This document shows positions 47,936 through 53,275 of a DNA stretch of 64,000 nt, piece by piece (the stretch's first letter is position 1; each line of letters begins with the position of its first letter). The translations under genes were made by a program, and so were the position numbers. The notes below the pieces were generated by a model. That model was not told where the DNA came from and did no database searches. It was given only the letters and a program-made list of their open reading frames with translations. This DNA is from Agromyces sp. NDB4Y10 (GTDB lineage: Bacteria; Actinomycetota; Actinomycetes; Actinomycetales; Microbacteriaceae), in NCBI RefSeq assembly GCF_001620055.1, contig NZ_LQGY01000002.1:1-64000 (forward strand), written 5' to 3'.

Positions 47936-49195
47936 ATGACGACGCCCCCCGCGATCCGCCTCCCCGCCGTCCCGGACCGTTCCCCGTCGCAGACGTCGGT
48001 GGCGCGCCGGAGCATCGCGGCGATCGCGTCCGCGGCGGCCGTGGCGGTCGTGGCGTTCGTCTCCGGCGTGCTCGCGACCTCGCTCGCGCAGGGGCAGAAC
48101 CCCGCCGTGTTCGGGCAGGCCTTCGGATACTTCTCGCTCGCCGCGGTCGTGCTCTGGGCGCTCCTGTGCGTCGCGAACGCCGCGGGTGCGCTGCGCGCGT
48201 GGTTCCTCGCCGCGCTCGCGGGGCTCACGTCGGCGGTGCTGGCCGCGCTCCTGGCCGCGAGCACGAACGTCCTCTCGCGCGGCATCGAGGTGACCGGGCA
48301 GGTCTTCTCGGTCCTCCTCGGCTCGCTCGCGGGCATCAACCTCGTCTTCATCGTCGCGGCGGTGCTCGCCGAGATCTTCCTCGCGCCTCGCGTCGAGCGG
48401 GCGGTCCTGCACCACCGGCCCCGGCGCCAGCAGCGCCGCGTGGCCCTCGTGCGCATCCCCGCCTCGAACCTCGGCGAGGGCGAGTTGACGCACCTCGAGC
48501 GGCGAGCGGTCGACACCGCGAAGGCCGACGAGCAGTGGGACGACTACTGCGCGGCGCTCGTCGCGGAGGGCTGGGACACCGTCGAGGTCGACGCGGCCCC
48601 CGACCTGCCCGACTCGGTCTTCATCGAGGACACCGTCGTGTTCTTCGGCGACCTCGCGGTCCTGGCGAACCCGGGCGCCGACTCGCGCAAGCCCGAGGTC
48701 GAGGCGGTCGAGCGCGCCGTCCGCGCGATCCCGGGCATCTCGATCGCCCGCATCACCGCGCCCGGCACGCTCGACGGCGGCGACGTCCTCAAGGTCGGCG
48801 GCACGGTCTACGTCGGCGCGTCGAGCCGCACCAACGCGGAGGGCATCCGGCAGCTGCGCGGCATCCTCGCGGCACGTGGGTACACCGTCGTCGCGGTGCC
48901 GATGACGAAGGCGCTGCACCTGAAGAGCGGTGCGACCGCGTTGCCCGACGGCACGGTGATCGGGCACCCCGACCTCCTCGAGACGACCTCGCTGTTCCCG
49001 CGGTTCCTCGCGGTGCCCGAGCCGGAGGGCGTCGCGGTCGTGCTGCTCTCCGACGAGACGCTGCTCATGTCGGCGTCCGCGCCGCGCACGGCCGAGCTGC
49101 TGTCGAACCTCGGCTACCGCGTCGTGACGGTCGACATCAGCGAGTTCGAGAAGCTCGAGGGCTGCGTCACGTGCCTGTCGGTCCGGGTGCGCTGA
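47936..49195 (+). CDS. Membrane domain fused to a DDAH-family amidinohydrolase
   Basis: 419 residues. Residues 25-150 contain four hydrophobic helices; residues ~165-419 match dimethylarginine dimethylaminohydrolase/arginine-deiminase-like enzymes: IPASNLGEGELTHLERR, DSVFIEDTVVFFGDLAVLANPGADSRKPE (core FIEDTVVFFGD, with the substrate-binding Glu/Asp), LDGGDVLKVGGTVYVG, the catalytic His in LHLKSGATAL and the nucleophile Cys in EGCVTCLSVRVR at the C-terminus. DDAH frees citrulline and dimethylamine from methylated arginine. Ordinary DDAH is ~255-285 residues and soluble, so the N-terminal membrane part is the unusual feature. Substrate not certain. Confidence 0.85.
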   Translation: MTTPPAIRLPAVPDRSPSQTSVARRSIAAIASAAAVAVVAFVSGVLATSLAQGQNPAVFGQAFGYFSLAAVVLWALLCVANAAGALRAWFLAALAGLTSAVLAALLAASTNVLSRGIEVTGQVFSVLLGSLAGINLVFIVAAVLAEIFLAPRVERAVLHHRPRRQQRRVALVRIPASNLGEGELTHLERRAVDTAKADEQWDDYCAALVAEGWDTVEVDAAPDLPDSVFIEDTVVFFGDLAVLANPGADSRKPEVEAVERAVRAIPGISIARITAPGTLDGGDVLKVGGTVYVGASSRTNAEGIRQLRGILAARGYTVVAVPMTKALHLKSGATALPDGTVIGHPDLLETTSLFPRFLAVPEPEGVAVVLLSDETLLMSASAPRTAELLSNLGYRVVTVDISEFEKLEGCVTCLSVRVR

Positions 49196-49233
49196 CCACG
49201 CCGCCGGTCCGTTCGGAGGTCGCGAACTCGCTC

Positions 49234-49263
49234 TTGCGCGCCGACGGCGGATGCCCATAGCCT
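49234..49263 (+). promoter_or_regulatory. Promoter of the exporter leader transcript
   Basis: TTGCGC (49234-49239) and TAGCCT (49258-49263) with an 18-base spacer. Transcription would start near 49270, giving a leader of about 300 bases before the first exporter gene. Confidence 0.5.
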
Positions 49264-49332
49264 GAAGGGCTGGCCGTGCGGGGAACCATCCGCCGGCCAT
49301 GGGGTTCGTTGACCACGACGCAGGAGGACGAC

Positions 49333-49416
49333 ATGCAGATCACCGACACTCTCGCCCGCACGGTCGCGGCGTTCGGTCCTGCCGTCCCGGTGTCCGCCCC
49401 GACCCAGGCCGGCTAG
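49333..49416 (+). CDS. 27-residue leader peptide ahead of the ABC exporter
   Basis: A short ORF with AGGAGG five bases before its ATG, the best ribosome site in this part of the window. The peptide begins MQITDTLARTV and ends APTQAG; its second half is Pro/Val/Ala-rich (FGPAVPVSAP), and the stop is TAG. It is too short to be an ordinary gene and its end overlaps the first of three GCCGGC copies that could pair in alternative ways. In B. subtilis a leader peptide (BmrB) controls the heterodimeric exporter BmrCD by ribosome-mediated attenuation; I infer a similar role here from position and form, not from sequence similarity. Confidence 0.6.
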   Translation: MQITDTLARTVAAFGPAVPVSAPTQAG

Positions 49417-49434
49417 CTCCGACCGGGTCCACGT

Positions 49435-49451
49435 GCCGGCGAGTCGCCGGC
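49435..49451 (+). promoter_or_regulatory. Hairpin 1 after the leader ORF
   Basis: GCCGGCGA-G-TCGCCGGC, an almost perfect stem 18 bases after the leader stop. Each arm contains GCCGGC, and another GCCGGC forms the last two sense codons of the leader (49408-49413), so two mutually exclusive pairings exist. Confidence 0.5.
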
Positions 49452-49462
49452 TGCCCACGACC

Positions 49463-49479
49463 GCGGGAACGATTCCCGC
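49463..49479 (+). promoter_or_regulatory. Hairpin 2 in the exporter leader
   Basis: GCGGGAA and TTCCCGC form a 7-bp stem around CGA, 11 bases beyond hairpin 1. Confidence 0.4.
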
Positions 49480-49568
49480 CGTTCGCGCGCCCACGCGCGC
49501 GCCTCCACGTCTCCATTCGACGAGGTCCTCGCTGAGCGACCCGTCGCGCTTTCCCGGAAGGATCCGGC

Positions 49569-51473
49569 GTGACCGCCACCCATCCCCAGCTCCACCCTCC
49601 GCATGACCGGCGCCCCGGCACCGTGCGCGCGCTCCTGCGCCTCCGTGCCTACGCCCGCCCCGCCATCCCGTGGATCCTCGCGGGCATGGGCGCGTCGCTG
49701 ACCGCCCAGCTCGTCGCCCTGTCGATCCCGCAGGTACTGCAGGCGATCGTCGACGGGCCGCTCAGCGACGGCGACGCGGCATCCGTCGTGCCCCTGGCGC
49801 TGCTCGTGCTCGGGCTCGGCGTGCTCGAGGCGCTGCTCGTCGCGCTTCGGCGGTGGTTCGTCCTGAAGCCCGGCACGCGCGTCGAGGCGTCGATGCGCAA
49901 CACGCTGTACGCGAAGCTGCAGGACCTTCCCGTGAGCTTCCACGACCGCTGGCCGAGCGGGCAGCTGCTCTCGCGCGCGGTGAGCGACCTGAACCTCATC
50001 CGCCGTTGGATGTCGTTCGGCCTCGTGCTGCTCACGGTGAACCTCATCGTGATCCTCGTCGGCATCGGCATCCTCGTGTCGATGAACTGGATGCTCGGGC
50101 TCGCGTTCCTCGTCGCGTCGCTGCCGCTCTGGGTCGTCGGCTACCGCTTCGAGGGCCGCTACTCGGAGGTCTCGCGGCGCAGCCAGGACCAGCAGGGCGA
50201 CCTCGCGACCGCCGTCGAGGAGTCGGTGCACGGCATCCGGGTGCTGAAGGCGTTCGGCCGCGGCAAGCACGCACTCACGACGTTCCGCGCGCAGGCCGAG
50301 ACGCTGCGCTCGACCGAGCTCGAGAAGGGGCGCCTCGAAGCGGCCATCTGGTTCTGGCTCATCGTGATCCCCGCGATCGCCCTCGCGGGCTGCCTCGTGC
50401 TCGGCGTGTGGCTCGCCGCGCAGGGCACGCTCACGGTGGGCGAGCTCGTCGCGTTCTTCGCCACCGCGGGCGTGCTCGCGTGGCCGATCGAGTCGATCGG
50501 GTTCCTGCTCGCGTTCACGCTCGACGCGCGCGCGGCGACCGACCGCTACTTCGACATCATCGACAGCCGGAACGACATCGTCGACCCCGAGCGTCCCGTG
50601 TCGATCGAGCGGCCGCGCGGCGAGCTCGCGTTCCGCGACGTGCACTTCCGCTACCAGGACTCGCCCGAGCGGTTCGGCGACCTGCTCGACGGCGTCGACC
50701 TCGTGGTGCGACCCGGGGAGACCATGGCGCTCGTCGGCCTGACCGGCTCGGGCAAGACCACGATGACCGCGCTCGCGACCCGCCTGTACGACGTCACCGC
50801 CGGCGCGGTCGAGCTCGACGGCGTCGACGTGCGCGCGCTCAGCCGCGAGGAACTGCGCCGCCACATCGCGATGGCCTTCGAGGACGCCACGCTGTTCTCG
50901 GCGTCGGTGCGCGACAACGTGCTGCTCGGCCGGCCCGAGCTCACGGGCGACGCGGCAGCCGACCCCGCCGTCGCCGCCGAGGCCGAGCGCGTGCTCGAGG
51001 AGGCGCTGCGCATCGCGCAGGCCGGCTTCGCCCACGGCCTGCCGGACGGGCTCGACACGAAGGTCGGCGAGGAGGGCATGAGCCTCTCGGGCGGTCAGCG
51101 ACAGCGCCTCGCGCTCGCTCGCGCCATCGCGGCGAACCCCGCCGTGCTCGTGCTCGACGACCCGCTGTCGGCGCTCGACGTCGCGACCGAGGCCAAGGTG
51201 GAGGCCGAGCTGCGCCGCGTGCTGGCCGACACCACCGCGCTCATCGTGGCGCACCGGCCGTCGACCGTGATGCTCGCCGACCGCGTCGCCCTCCTCGAGG
51301 ACGGGCGCATCACGGCGGTCGGCACGCACTCCGAGCTGCTCGCCACGAGCGAGCACTACCGCTTCGTCATCTCGAGCCTCGAGGACGAGGAGCGGGGCCG
51401 CCAGGCCGAGTCGACCGACCGCATCGAGGACGCGGCCGACGAACTGGACGAACGAGAGGAGGTGGCGCGATGA
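49569..51473 (+). CDS. ABC exporter half-transporter with degenerate catalytic site
   Basis: 634 residues: six membrane helices (about residues 33-300) and one ATPase domain (about 350-590). Walker A is GLTGSGKTT and the signature LSGGQRQRL is intact, but Walker B ends VLDDPLS, with Asp where the catalytic Glu should be, and the Q loop reads AFEDATLF, with Glu for Gln. This is the pattern of the inactive-site half of heterodimeric multidrug exporters such as BmrCD or TM287/288. The C-terminus is acidic. Start GTG 49569 with GGAAGGA. Its stop overlaps the next gene (ATGA), so the pair is translated together. Confidence 0.9.
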
Positions 51474-53275
51474 CCGTCACCGGTGTCGCCGGCGAGGAAC
51501 GCCACGACTTCACCAAGGCCGAGTCGAAGCAGATCCGGCAGCGGTCGCTGCGCCTGCTGCGCTCGCTGCTGCACCCCGTGCGGGGAACGCTGTGGCTCAC
51601 CATGGCGGTCGTGCTCGTCTCGACCCTCGCCCAGGTCGCCGGACCCGCCCTCATCGCGTACGGCATCGACCGCGGCCTGCCCGCCCTCGTCGAGGGCGAG
51701 TGGATGCCGGTGGCCTTCGCCGGGTTCGCGTACCTGTTCACGGGCGTCGTCGGCGCGTTCCTCATCGCCTGGTACATCCGCCTCGCGGCGCGCATCAGCC
51801 AAGCGGTGCTCATCGACCTGCGCACGCGCATCTTCCTGCACACGCAGAAGCTGTCGCTCGAGTTCCACGAGTCGTACACGTCCGGGCGCATCATCTCCCG
51901 GCAGACGAGCGACCTCGACGCGATTCGCGAGCTCCTCGACGAGGGCGTGAACGCGCTCGTGCGCGGCACGCTGTACATGGGGTTCACGGGTATCGCGCTG
52001 GTGCTGCTCGATCCCGTGTCGGGCCTCGTGCTCGCCGGGTCGATCCTGCCGCTCGCGCTGCTCACGCGGTGGTTCCAGCAGCGGTCGCAGCGGCTGTTCC
52101 GCCGGTCGCGGACGGCGTCGGCGAACCTCATCGTGCAGTTCGTCGAGACCATGACGGGCATCCGCGCGGTGCAGGCGTTCCGCACCGAGCGCCGCAACCG
52201 GAAGGAGTTCGGCCGGCTGGTCGAGGACTACCGCGACGTCAACGCGCGCGTCATCCAGCTGTTCGGCATCTACGACCCCGGGCTGATCCTGATCGGCAAC
52301 GTCACGGTCGCCGTCGTGCTGCTCGTGGGCGGCCTCCGGGTCATCGACGGACAGCTCGAGATCGGCGTCCTGCTCGCGGCGCTGCTGTACACGCGCCGGT
52401 TCTTCGACCCGCTCGAGGACATGGCGATGTTCTACAACGGCTACCAGTCCGCGGCATCCGCGCTCGAGAAGATCTCGGGCGTGCTCGAGGAGGACCCGAG
52501 CGTGCCCGACCCGCGCGACCCGGTCGACCTGTGGAAGGCCGACGGTCGCGTGCGGTTCGAGGGCGTCGAGTTCGCGTACACCCCCGAGCGGATGGTGCTG
52601 CCGAGGTTCGACCTCGACGTCCCCGCCGGGCAGACCATCGCGCTGGTGGGTTCCACGGGTGCCGGCAAGTCGACGCTCGCGAAGCTCATCGCCCGGTTCT
52701 ACGACCCGAGCGACGGCGTGGTGGAGCTCGACGGCGTCGACCTCCGGCGACTGCACCCGAAGGACCTGCGCCGCGCGATCGTGATGGTCACGCAGGAGGC
52801 GTACCTGTTCTCCGGTTCGGTGGCCGACAACATCCGGCTGGGCAAGCCGGATGCCACGCCGGAGGAGATCATCGCCGCGGCGAAGGCGGTCGGCGCGCAC
52901 GAGTTCATCGAGGGCCTGCCGAACGGGTACGACACCGACGTGAACAAGCGCGGCGGGCGCGTCTCGGCGGGCCAGCGCCAGCTCATCTCGTTCGCGCGCG
53001 CGTTCCTCGCCGACCCGGCGGTGCTGATCCTCGACGAGGCGACCTCGTCGCTCGACATCCCGTCGGAGCGCGCCGTGCAGGAGGGCCTGCAGACCCTGCT
53101 CGCCGACCGCACCGCGGTGATCATCGCGCACCGCCTGTCGACCGTCGCGATCGCCGATCGCGTGCTCGTCATGGAGCACGGCCGGATCGTCGAGGACGGC
53201 GCGCCGGCCGAGCTCATCGGCGGGTCGGGTCGCTTCGCGAAGCTGCACGCCGCCTGGCGCGACTCGCTCGTGTGA
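51470..53275 (+). CDS. ABC exporter half-transporter, catalytic partner
   Basis: 601 residues with six helices (about 45-300) and an ATPase domain (about 355-590). Walker [11 protein letters not shown] loop MVTQEAYLF, Walker [11 protein letters not shown] and switch His (IIAHRLST) are canonical; the signature, RVSAGQRQL, has Ala for Gly. Paired with the previous protein, this gives one working site (this Walker B plus LSGGQ of the partner) and one degenerate site. Such exporters move drugs, lipids or peptides; the substrate is unknown. Starts with ATGA overlap and ends at a strong terminator. Confidence 0.92.

Follow-up and report, generated by a model that had tools for sequence, protein, structure and literature searches.

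A conserved leader ORF upstream of a putative heterodimeric ABC exporter in Agromyces: a candidate translation-dependent attenuator

Known leader systems and the Agromyces locus

In Bacillus subtilis, bmrB (162 nt) combines an intrinsic terminator-like structure with an anti-terminator in its coding region, and the ribosome has been proposed as the sensor in the bmrB-bmrCD system (PMC4191407). In Streptomyces lincolnensis, a study of lmrC reports that disruption of an upstream open reading frame (ORF) leads to constitutive expression, that induction of the attenuator by drug was shown and that the mapped premature terminator partly overlaps the ORF (PMC8546547). For Mycobacterium, one source describes ribosome-mediated attenuation at the ilvB1 leader and mentions whiB7, which is induced by ribosome stalling on its leader ORF (PMC13236596), and another describes an upstream ORF together with Rho-dependent termination in the Mbox-pe20 leader of Mycobacterium tuberculosis (PMC12810186).

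The locus studied here lies in a window of 64,000 nucleotides of Agromyces DNA and can be compared with each of these systems. It resembles bmrB-bmrCD in that a short leader ORF stands directly before heterodimeric ABC exporter genes (PMC4191407). Unlike bmrB, the Agromyces leader contains no U-tract terminator above chance level; its hairpin is located past the stop codon and is followed by a C-rich spacer. With lmrC it shares an Actinobacterial upstream ORF, although the target of lmrC regulation is an ABCF protein rather than an exporter (PMC8546547), and with whiB7, compared by description, it shares an Actinobacterial leader ORF, the target there being a transcription factor (PMC13236596). 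Like the cassette proposed here, Mbox-pe20 unites a small upstream ORF and Rho-dependent termination; its signal, however, is Mg2+ acting via a riboswitch (PMC12810186), whereas the Agromyces leader has no Rfam match, either in a scan of the whole window at the gathering threshold or in one of 49100-49700 with E-values up to 1. The initial annotation, made from the sequence alone, had stated that no such case was known in this group of bacteria. This appears to hold for Microbacteriaceae, for which our literature search, with most subscription journals outside its scope, found no description of such a leader among the papers listed, but not for Actinobacteria, in which lmrC, whiB7 and ilvB1 have been described.

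The exporter is encoded on the forward strand, as are all other features with coordinates below. The genes for subunit A (49569-51473, GTG start) and subunit B (51470-53275, ATG start) overlap at 51470-51473, both products carry PF00664 and PF00005, and a Shine-Dalgarno sequence (GGAAGGA, 49556-49562) lies ahead of the GTG start. As read from the sequence, the catalytic E of Walker B is changed to D in subunit A, giving DD, and subunit B has the canonical DE together with the signature VSAGQ instead of LSGGQ. DD/DE plus a variant signature is the asymmetric pattern typical of heterodimeric exporters. The asymmetry claimed in the initial annotation is borne out by the degenerate Walker B of A and the canonical DE and VSAGQ of B, and the two genes probably encode a heterodimeric ABC exporter. 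The top-scoring solved chains for the subunits are eukaryotic ABCB proteins; bacterial solved relatives include SAV1866, TM_0288 and YheI/YheH, the last of which correspond to BmrC/BmrD. The exporter is present in Agromyces, Leifsonia, Cryobacterium, Plantibacter and other members of the bacterial family, and the nearest named carriers, among the best 80 of 332 relatives, are Agromyces. One genome of the genus carries an extra subunit A homologue (L058 in G035) that is 55% identical to the query and has no detected leader ORF, and in the leader L054 the exporter match is preceded by consecutive CTG triplets. The gene upstream of the locus (47936-49195) encodes a dimethylargininase (NF045660, residues 170-418) with a hydrophobic, probably membrane-spanning N-terminal extension of about 160 residues.

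From 5' to 3', the locus consists of a promoter-like pair, a 5' leader, AGGAGG, a 27-codon ORF, two hairpins, a spacer, GGAAGGA and the exporter. The promoter-like element (49234-49272) comprises TTGCGC at 49234-49239, an 18-nt spacer and TAGCCT at 49258-49263, followed by GAAGGGCTG; its family-wide core is TANNNTGNARGGCT. The initial annotation had proposed a promoter here. A generic sigma-70 scan did not flag the TTGCGC/TAGCCT pair of the window, but the pair matches the version of the element found across the genus. When 60 genomes (37 of the genus and 23 of other families) were searched with TTGC-N20-26-TANNNTGNARGGCTG at zero mismatches, a single match per genome was found in 32 of the 37 genus genomes, always with a spacing of 20 N and always at the exporter locus; none of the 23 genomes of other families had a match, and a reversed-pattern control gave one match among the 60 genomes (in G059). 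A looser version of the core was present in 38 of 48 genera of the family, compared with 0/48 in a reverse-strand control. With such an element upstream of 49333, the leader ORF and the exporter may share a single transcript. The stretch from the -10 to the likely start (49264-49272, GNARGGCTG) is conserved equally with the promoter, even in lineages without the leader ORF, and its GG (49272-49273) is shared with a 5' hairpin, H0 (49272-49298), in which GGCCG (49272-49276) pairs with CGGCC (49294-49298). Both-side changes occur at two of the six H0 pairs in 29 sequences, and the 5' leader has no excess folding stability relative to shuffled sequences (mean z -0.05).

A leader ORF retained in frame with a variable peptide

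The leader ORF (49333-49416) consists of 27 codons with a TAG stop, encodes the peptide MQITDTLARTVAAFGPAVPVSAPTQAG and is preceded by AGGAGG (49322-49327), 5 nt before the ATG at 49333. In a set of 60 genomes of the genus, including that of the window, an orthologue of exporter A, full or split, was found in 58; the two without one were G017 and G021, and the additional homologue L058 was excluded from the genus counts. Absence of the ORF and hairpins before close orthologues had been named beforehand as evidence against the proposed switch, and instead an ORF behind AGGAGG or GGAGG was present upstream of all 58 genus orthologues, 56 of them detected by the final script and two (L029 and L033) missed there through a false promoter match. 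Among the 56 script-detected leaders, 50 have AGGAGG and six have GGAGG; genus ORF lengths range from 26 to 36 codons, within selection limits of 20-40 codons (15-45 in the final script). A search of the 60 genus genomes with the Shine-Dalgarno/start word ACGCAGGAGGACANCATGCARAC, allowing up to two mismatches, returned one match per genome in 40 genomes, in every case ahead of the exporter match by a few hundred bases, and the reversed word returned none in the same 60.

The ORF is also common beyond the genus, although the named loci, the 48-genus set and the genus set overlap one another and all counts contain related sequences. Of the best 80 of 332 relatives, 78 had upstream DNA, and a leader ORF of 15-60 codons was present at 70 of these 78 named family loci. 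With one genome taken per genus, 33 of 48 genera have the ORF, compared with one of 48 in a reverse-strand search of these regions, and the promoter-like core and the ORF occur together in 25. Outside the family but within the order, neither the leader ORF nor the promoter-like element was found before any of 25 orthologues. The leader ORF and its AGGAGG are thus confirmed as described in the initial annotation: the ORF recurs at the same place in relatives more often than by chance, and it is part of the conserved leader that precedes an asymmetric exporter.

In 15 of the 48 genera the exporter is kept without a detected leader ORF, and in two of these 15 (L145 and L154) an ORF with a weaker Shine-Dalgarno sequence is visible by eye. 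Thirteen genera have the promoter-like core without a detected ORF; in 11 of them 50-164 nt separate the core from the exporter match, an arrangement resembling excision of the leader cassette, the remaining two being L145 and L154. The eight ORF-less named loci fall within the family tree (FastTree), and at least four changes of ORF presence or absence are required on the exporter tree, compared with a mean of 12.3 after shuffling. These four changes can be read as one gain and three losses, a direction that the count itself does not prove.

The reading frame of the ORF is maintained. In 51 genus leaders, the position of the stop codon varies with a standard deviation of 6 nt, compared with 127 and 102 nt for the ends of the other two frames, which are interrupted in nine and six of the 51 leaders, frame 0 being stop-free by construction in this comparison. 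These interruptions led us to reject a second reading frame within the ORF span. The GC content at the three codon positions is 0.73/0.65/0.85 in the genus ORFs, a pattern of the kind seen in coding DNA of high-GC bacteria, and 0.65/0.68/0.77, a weaker coding-like pattern, in other genera. Judging from the Shine-Dalgarno sequence, the retention of the frame and the codon composition within the genus, the leader ORF is probably translated.

The peptide, by comparison, looks free of amino-acid constraint. A check of synonymous sites, suggested when the locus was first annotated, revealed no purifying selection on it: single-base codon differences between close pairs comprise 113 nonsynonymous and 40 synonymous changes, 1.07 times the neutral expectation. 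Across 67 pairs, differences at codon positions 1/2/3 are 0.225/0.196/0.126 in the ORF and 0.087/0.059/0.266 in the exporter, so that the third-position share is 0.23 in the ORF versus a mean of 0.67 in the exporter, where the lowest value among 121 windows of 26 codons is 0.449. Arrest-peptide leaders of the erm and tnaC type conserve the peptide sequence around the arrest site; no such conservation was found in the genus comparisons. That the product of the ORF is a functional microprotein, such as an accessory peptide of the exporter, is very improbable in view of this lack of purifying selection on amino acids, even though the ORF is retained with a strong Shine-Dalgarno sequence and coding-like codon composition in the genus and some residues recur in its N-terminal half.

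Conservation is higher in the N-terminal than in the C-terminal half of the ORF, at first, second and third codon positions alike, which points to a constraint at the nucleotide level. ACA is the third codon in 38 of 48 distinct genus ORFs, and a mid-ORF word, GGC-RCT-GYC, recurs even in distant genera with its third bases fixed and its first and second bases variable; a search for pairing partners of either element found none.

Hairpins and a C-rich spacer past the stop codon

The ORF stop is followed by hairpin H1 (49435-49451, GCCGGCG-AGT-CGCCGGC), which starts 18 nt downstream, and by a second hairpin, H2 (49463-49479, GCGGGAA-CGA-TTCCCGC). Of the 58 genus leaders, 50 or 51 entered the counts of structures, skews and hairpins given here. 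A stem of six or more pairs within 55 nt of the stop is present in 46 of 51 genus leaders versus 37% of mononucleotide shuffles, and H1 starts 14-18 nt past the stop in 42 of the 51, a distance that would place it approximately at the edge of a terminating ribosome. The H1 variants GCAGGC/GCCTGC, GCCGGC/GCCGGC and GCCGGA/TCCGGC all pair, and one compensating pair (A-U to C-G) was found; at the H2 site, a GCGG/CCGC helix is paired in 92% of cases in 29 related leaders. In other genera the evidence is weaker, a post-stop hairpin being found in 16 of 33 ORF-bearing genera versus 8.3 expected. For this count, and for the skew count below, the 33 genera differ by one row from those counted above (L181, with a chance ORF above the promoter, is included and L146 is not).

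A count of double changes, in line with the covariation test suggested with the first annotation, found some in the set of hairpins and none in the pairing between the end of the ORF and the 3' arm of H1. On 29 aligned leaders, H0, H1 and H2 together with a candidate helix within the ORF, P1, have 91.8% of cells paired and 15 double-change cells versus a shuffled mean of 3.8, and they exceed slid versions of the same helices; relatedness inflates the shuffle control, and the helices had been chosen on 22 genus leaders and counted on 29 including those 22, which favours them. P1 itself, between mid-ORF GCUGCCCG and ORF-end CGGGUAGC, has 86.6% of cells paired and both-side changes at one of eight pairs. 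We do not claim this helix, because the folding energy of the ORF is at the level of shuffled sequences (mean z -0.05). When folding energies were compared with those of shuffles, a clear departure was seen in the post-stop region alone (mean z -0.63).

The spacer from the ORF stop to the exporter Shine-Dalgarno sequence (49417-49555) is C-rich and G-poor, a composition expected of a Rho loading region. Its skew, (C-G)/(C+G), has a mean of 0.25 and a minimum of 0.159 in 50 genus leaders. The spacer of the window itself has a skew of 0.16; of all 130-nt stretches of the window, both strands counted, 3.6% reach this value. So does one of the 22 upstream gaps compared with it, for which the mean skew is -0.01 on the basis of crude gene calls (37 genes covering 78% of the window). 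The mean skew is 0.25 in the 33 ORF-bearing genera (26 at or above 0.16), 0.09 in the 15 genera of the family where no ORF was detected (6 of 15) and 0.10 in the 25 orthologues without the ORF from other families (8 of 25). A C-rich, G-poor untranslated segment, as is characteristic of Rho-dependent attenuators, is present by composition. The skew is nevertheless an indirect sign, as it also occurs in a number of ORF-less leaders, and p-values for these group comparisons take no account of common descent. In three leaders (L027, L028 and L035) the distance from the ORF stop to the exporter start is 273-282 nt; the other in-frame-assigned starts of the genus lie 137-179 nt past the stop.

Translation-dependent attenuation and its alternatives

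The combination of a kept ORF, a free peptide, a post-stop hairpin and a C-rich spacer is best fitted by attenuation of the Rho type. We therefore tentatively favour, as a reading that falls a little short of an even chance, that the leader cassette is a translation-dependent attenuator, probably of the Rho type, which senses the general state of translation. The cassette consists of the promoter, the 5' hairpin, the strongly initiated ORF, the post-stop hairpin and the C-rich spacer ahead of the heterodimeric exporter. Ribosomes would translate the short ORF and be released at its stop, leaving 140-150 nt of C-rich RNA naked, and Rho or hairpin-assisted pausing would end many transcripts in the spacer, resulting in low exporter output. 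Slowing or stalling of ribosomes on the leader ORF would reduce this early termination, allowing the exporter to be made. As the peptide can vary freely, the cassette would respond to the state of translation rather than depend on a dedicated arrest peptide. From the anatomy of the leader we infer the attenuation mechanism as a whole: that the ORF is translated, that transcripts terminate early, that Rho takes part, and what the inducing signal is and in which direction it acts. A more specific form, in which the cassette acts ahead of a core exporter operon of the family as a peptide-independent meter of translation and any slowing of ribosomes on a short ORF of nearly arbitrary sequence relieves Rho-type termination in the C-rich spacer, is possible, though on balance doubtful. 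In this form the leader ORF would be a general sensor of translation stress that needs neither an arrest peptide nor regulatory codons nor an intrinsic terminator. The attenuator model does not account for the conservation that the N-terminal half shows at every codon position.

The leader could also be passive, the ORF and hairpins merely stabilizing the mRNA or aiding early transcription and conveying no signal. The unconstrained peptide, the apparent losses of the ORF with the promoter retained near the gene and the insensitivity of modelled exporter Shine-Dalgarno exposure to ribosome position are all consistent with such a role. However, the tight ORF length, the hairpin distance of 14-18 nt and the wide retention in the family would seem to exceed what it needs, and we consider it rather unlikely.

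In attenuators of the erm type, the position of a ribosome on the leader ORF alters access to a downstream Shine-Dalgarno sequence. Translational attenuation of this kind, with the exporter ribosome-binding site opened or closed by the position of the ribosome, would suit the GTG or TTG start and modest Shine-Dalgarno sequence of the exporter behind a strong leader ORF in the genus, and a recurrent hairpin near that Shine-Dalgarno sequence is 83% paired with double changes at two pairs in 22 leaders. In equilibrium folding models of 46 leaders, however, the mean exposure of the exporter Shine-Dalgarno sequence was 0.47-0.49 for every ribosome footprint that was masked (codon 8, codon 17, stop), and the last 75 nt of the leader exceed shuffled sequences in stability by little (mean z -0.38). 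For the leader of the window, modelled H1 pairing fell from 0.75 to 0.57 with codon 8 masked and to 0.53 with the stop masked, and Shine-Dalgarno exposure remained at 0.58-0.59. The suggestion of the initial annotation that a stalled ribosome changes the RNA pairing and thereby frees the exporter is not supported by these models, exposure being unmoved on average, and an erm-like mechanism seems quite unlikely.

The original interpretation was transcriptional attenuation with an intrinsic terminator, similar to bmrB-bmrCD. The layout is the same, with a leader ORF ahead of a heterodimeric exporter, the hairpin past the ORF is conserved in the genus, and in Actinobacteria a GC-rich hairpin may terminate transcription even if it lacks a U-tract. 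Nevertheless, U-tract terminators after the ORF occur at chance level, with terminator-like sites in four of 154 records versus 3.2 expected (the records were drawn from overlapping sets and are not independent), and consensus scans found none in the window between 48800 and 50000. The three GCCGGC copies on which the pairing switch had been based are all in the window, at 49408-49413 (the last two sense codons of the ORF), 49435-49440 and 49446-49451, and the last two form H1, but the ORF-end copy is found in only two of 56 genus leaders, and we reject a three-copy switch. In the competing helix between the ORF end and the 3' arm of H1, 92.5% of cells are paired but double changes are absent, and the compensating change in H1 breaks it; we dropped it as unsupported. 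An intrinsic attenuator is therefore distinctly improbable. In these analyses neither an intrinsic-terminator switch nor a ribosome-binding-site switch is visible; of the original interpretation, the real leader ORF and the conserved leader stand, but the specific pairing switch does not.

As the ORF is kept while its peptide varies, the act of translation may control the exporter, as envisaged for the translation-dependent attenuator that we favour. If this is correct, the selected trait of the small ORF would be its translation and not its product, and the sign of such selection would be a kept frame with an unconstrained peptide. Many natural variants of the cassette are on offer, including lineages that have apparently lost it and retain the promoter. 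Under the same model, ribosome-sensing control of heterodimeric exporters would reach from Bacillus to Actinobacteria, and an exporter widely kept in a large family of soil- and plant-associated bacteria would be tied to the state of the ribosome.
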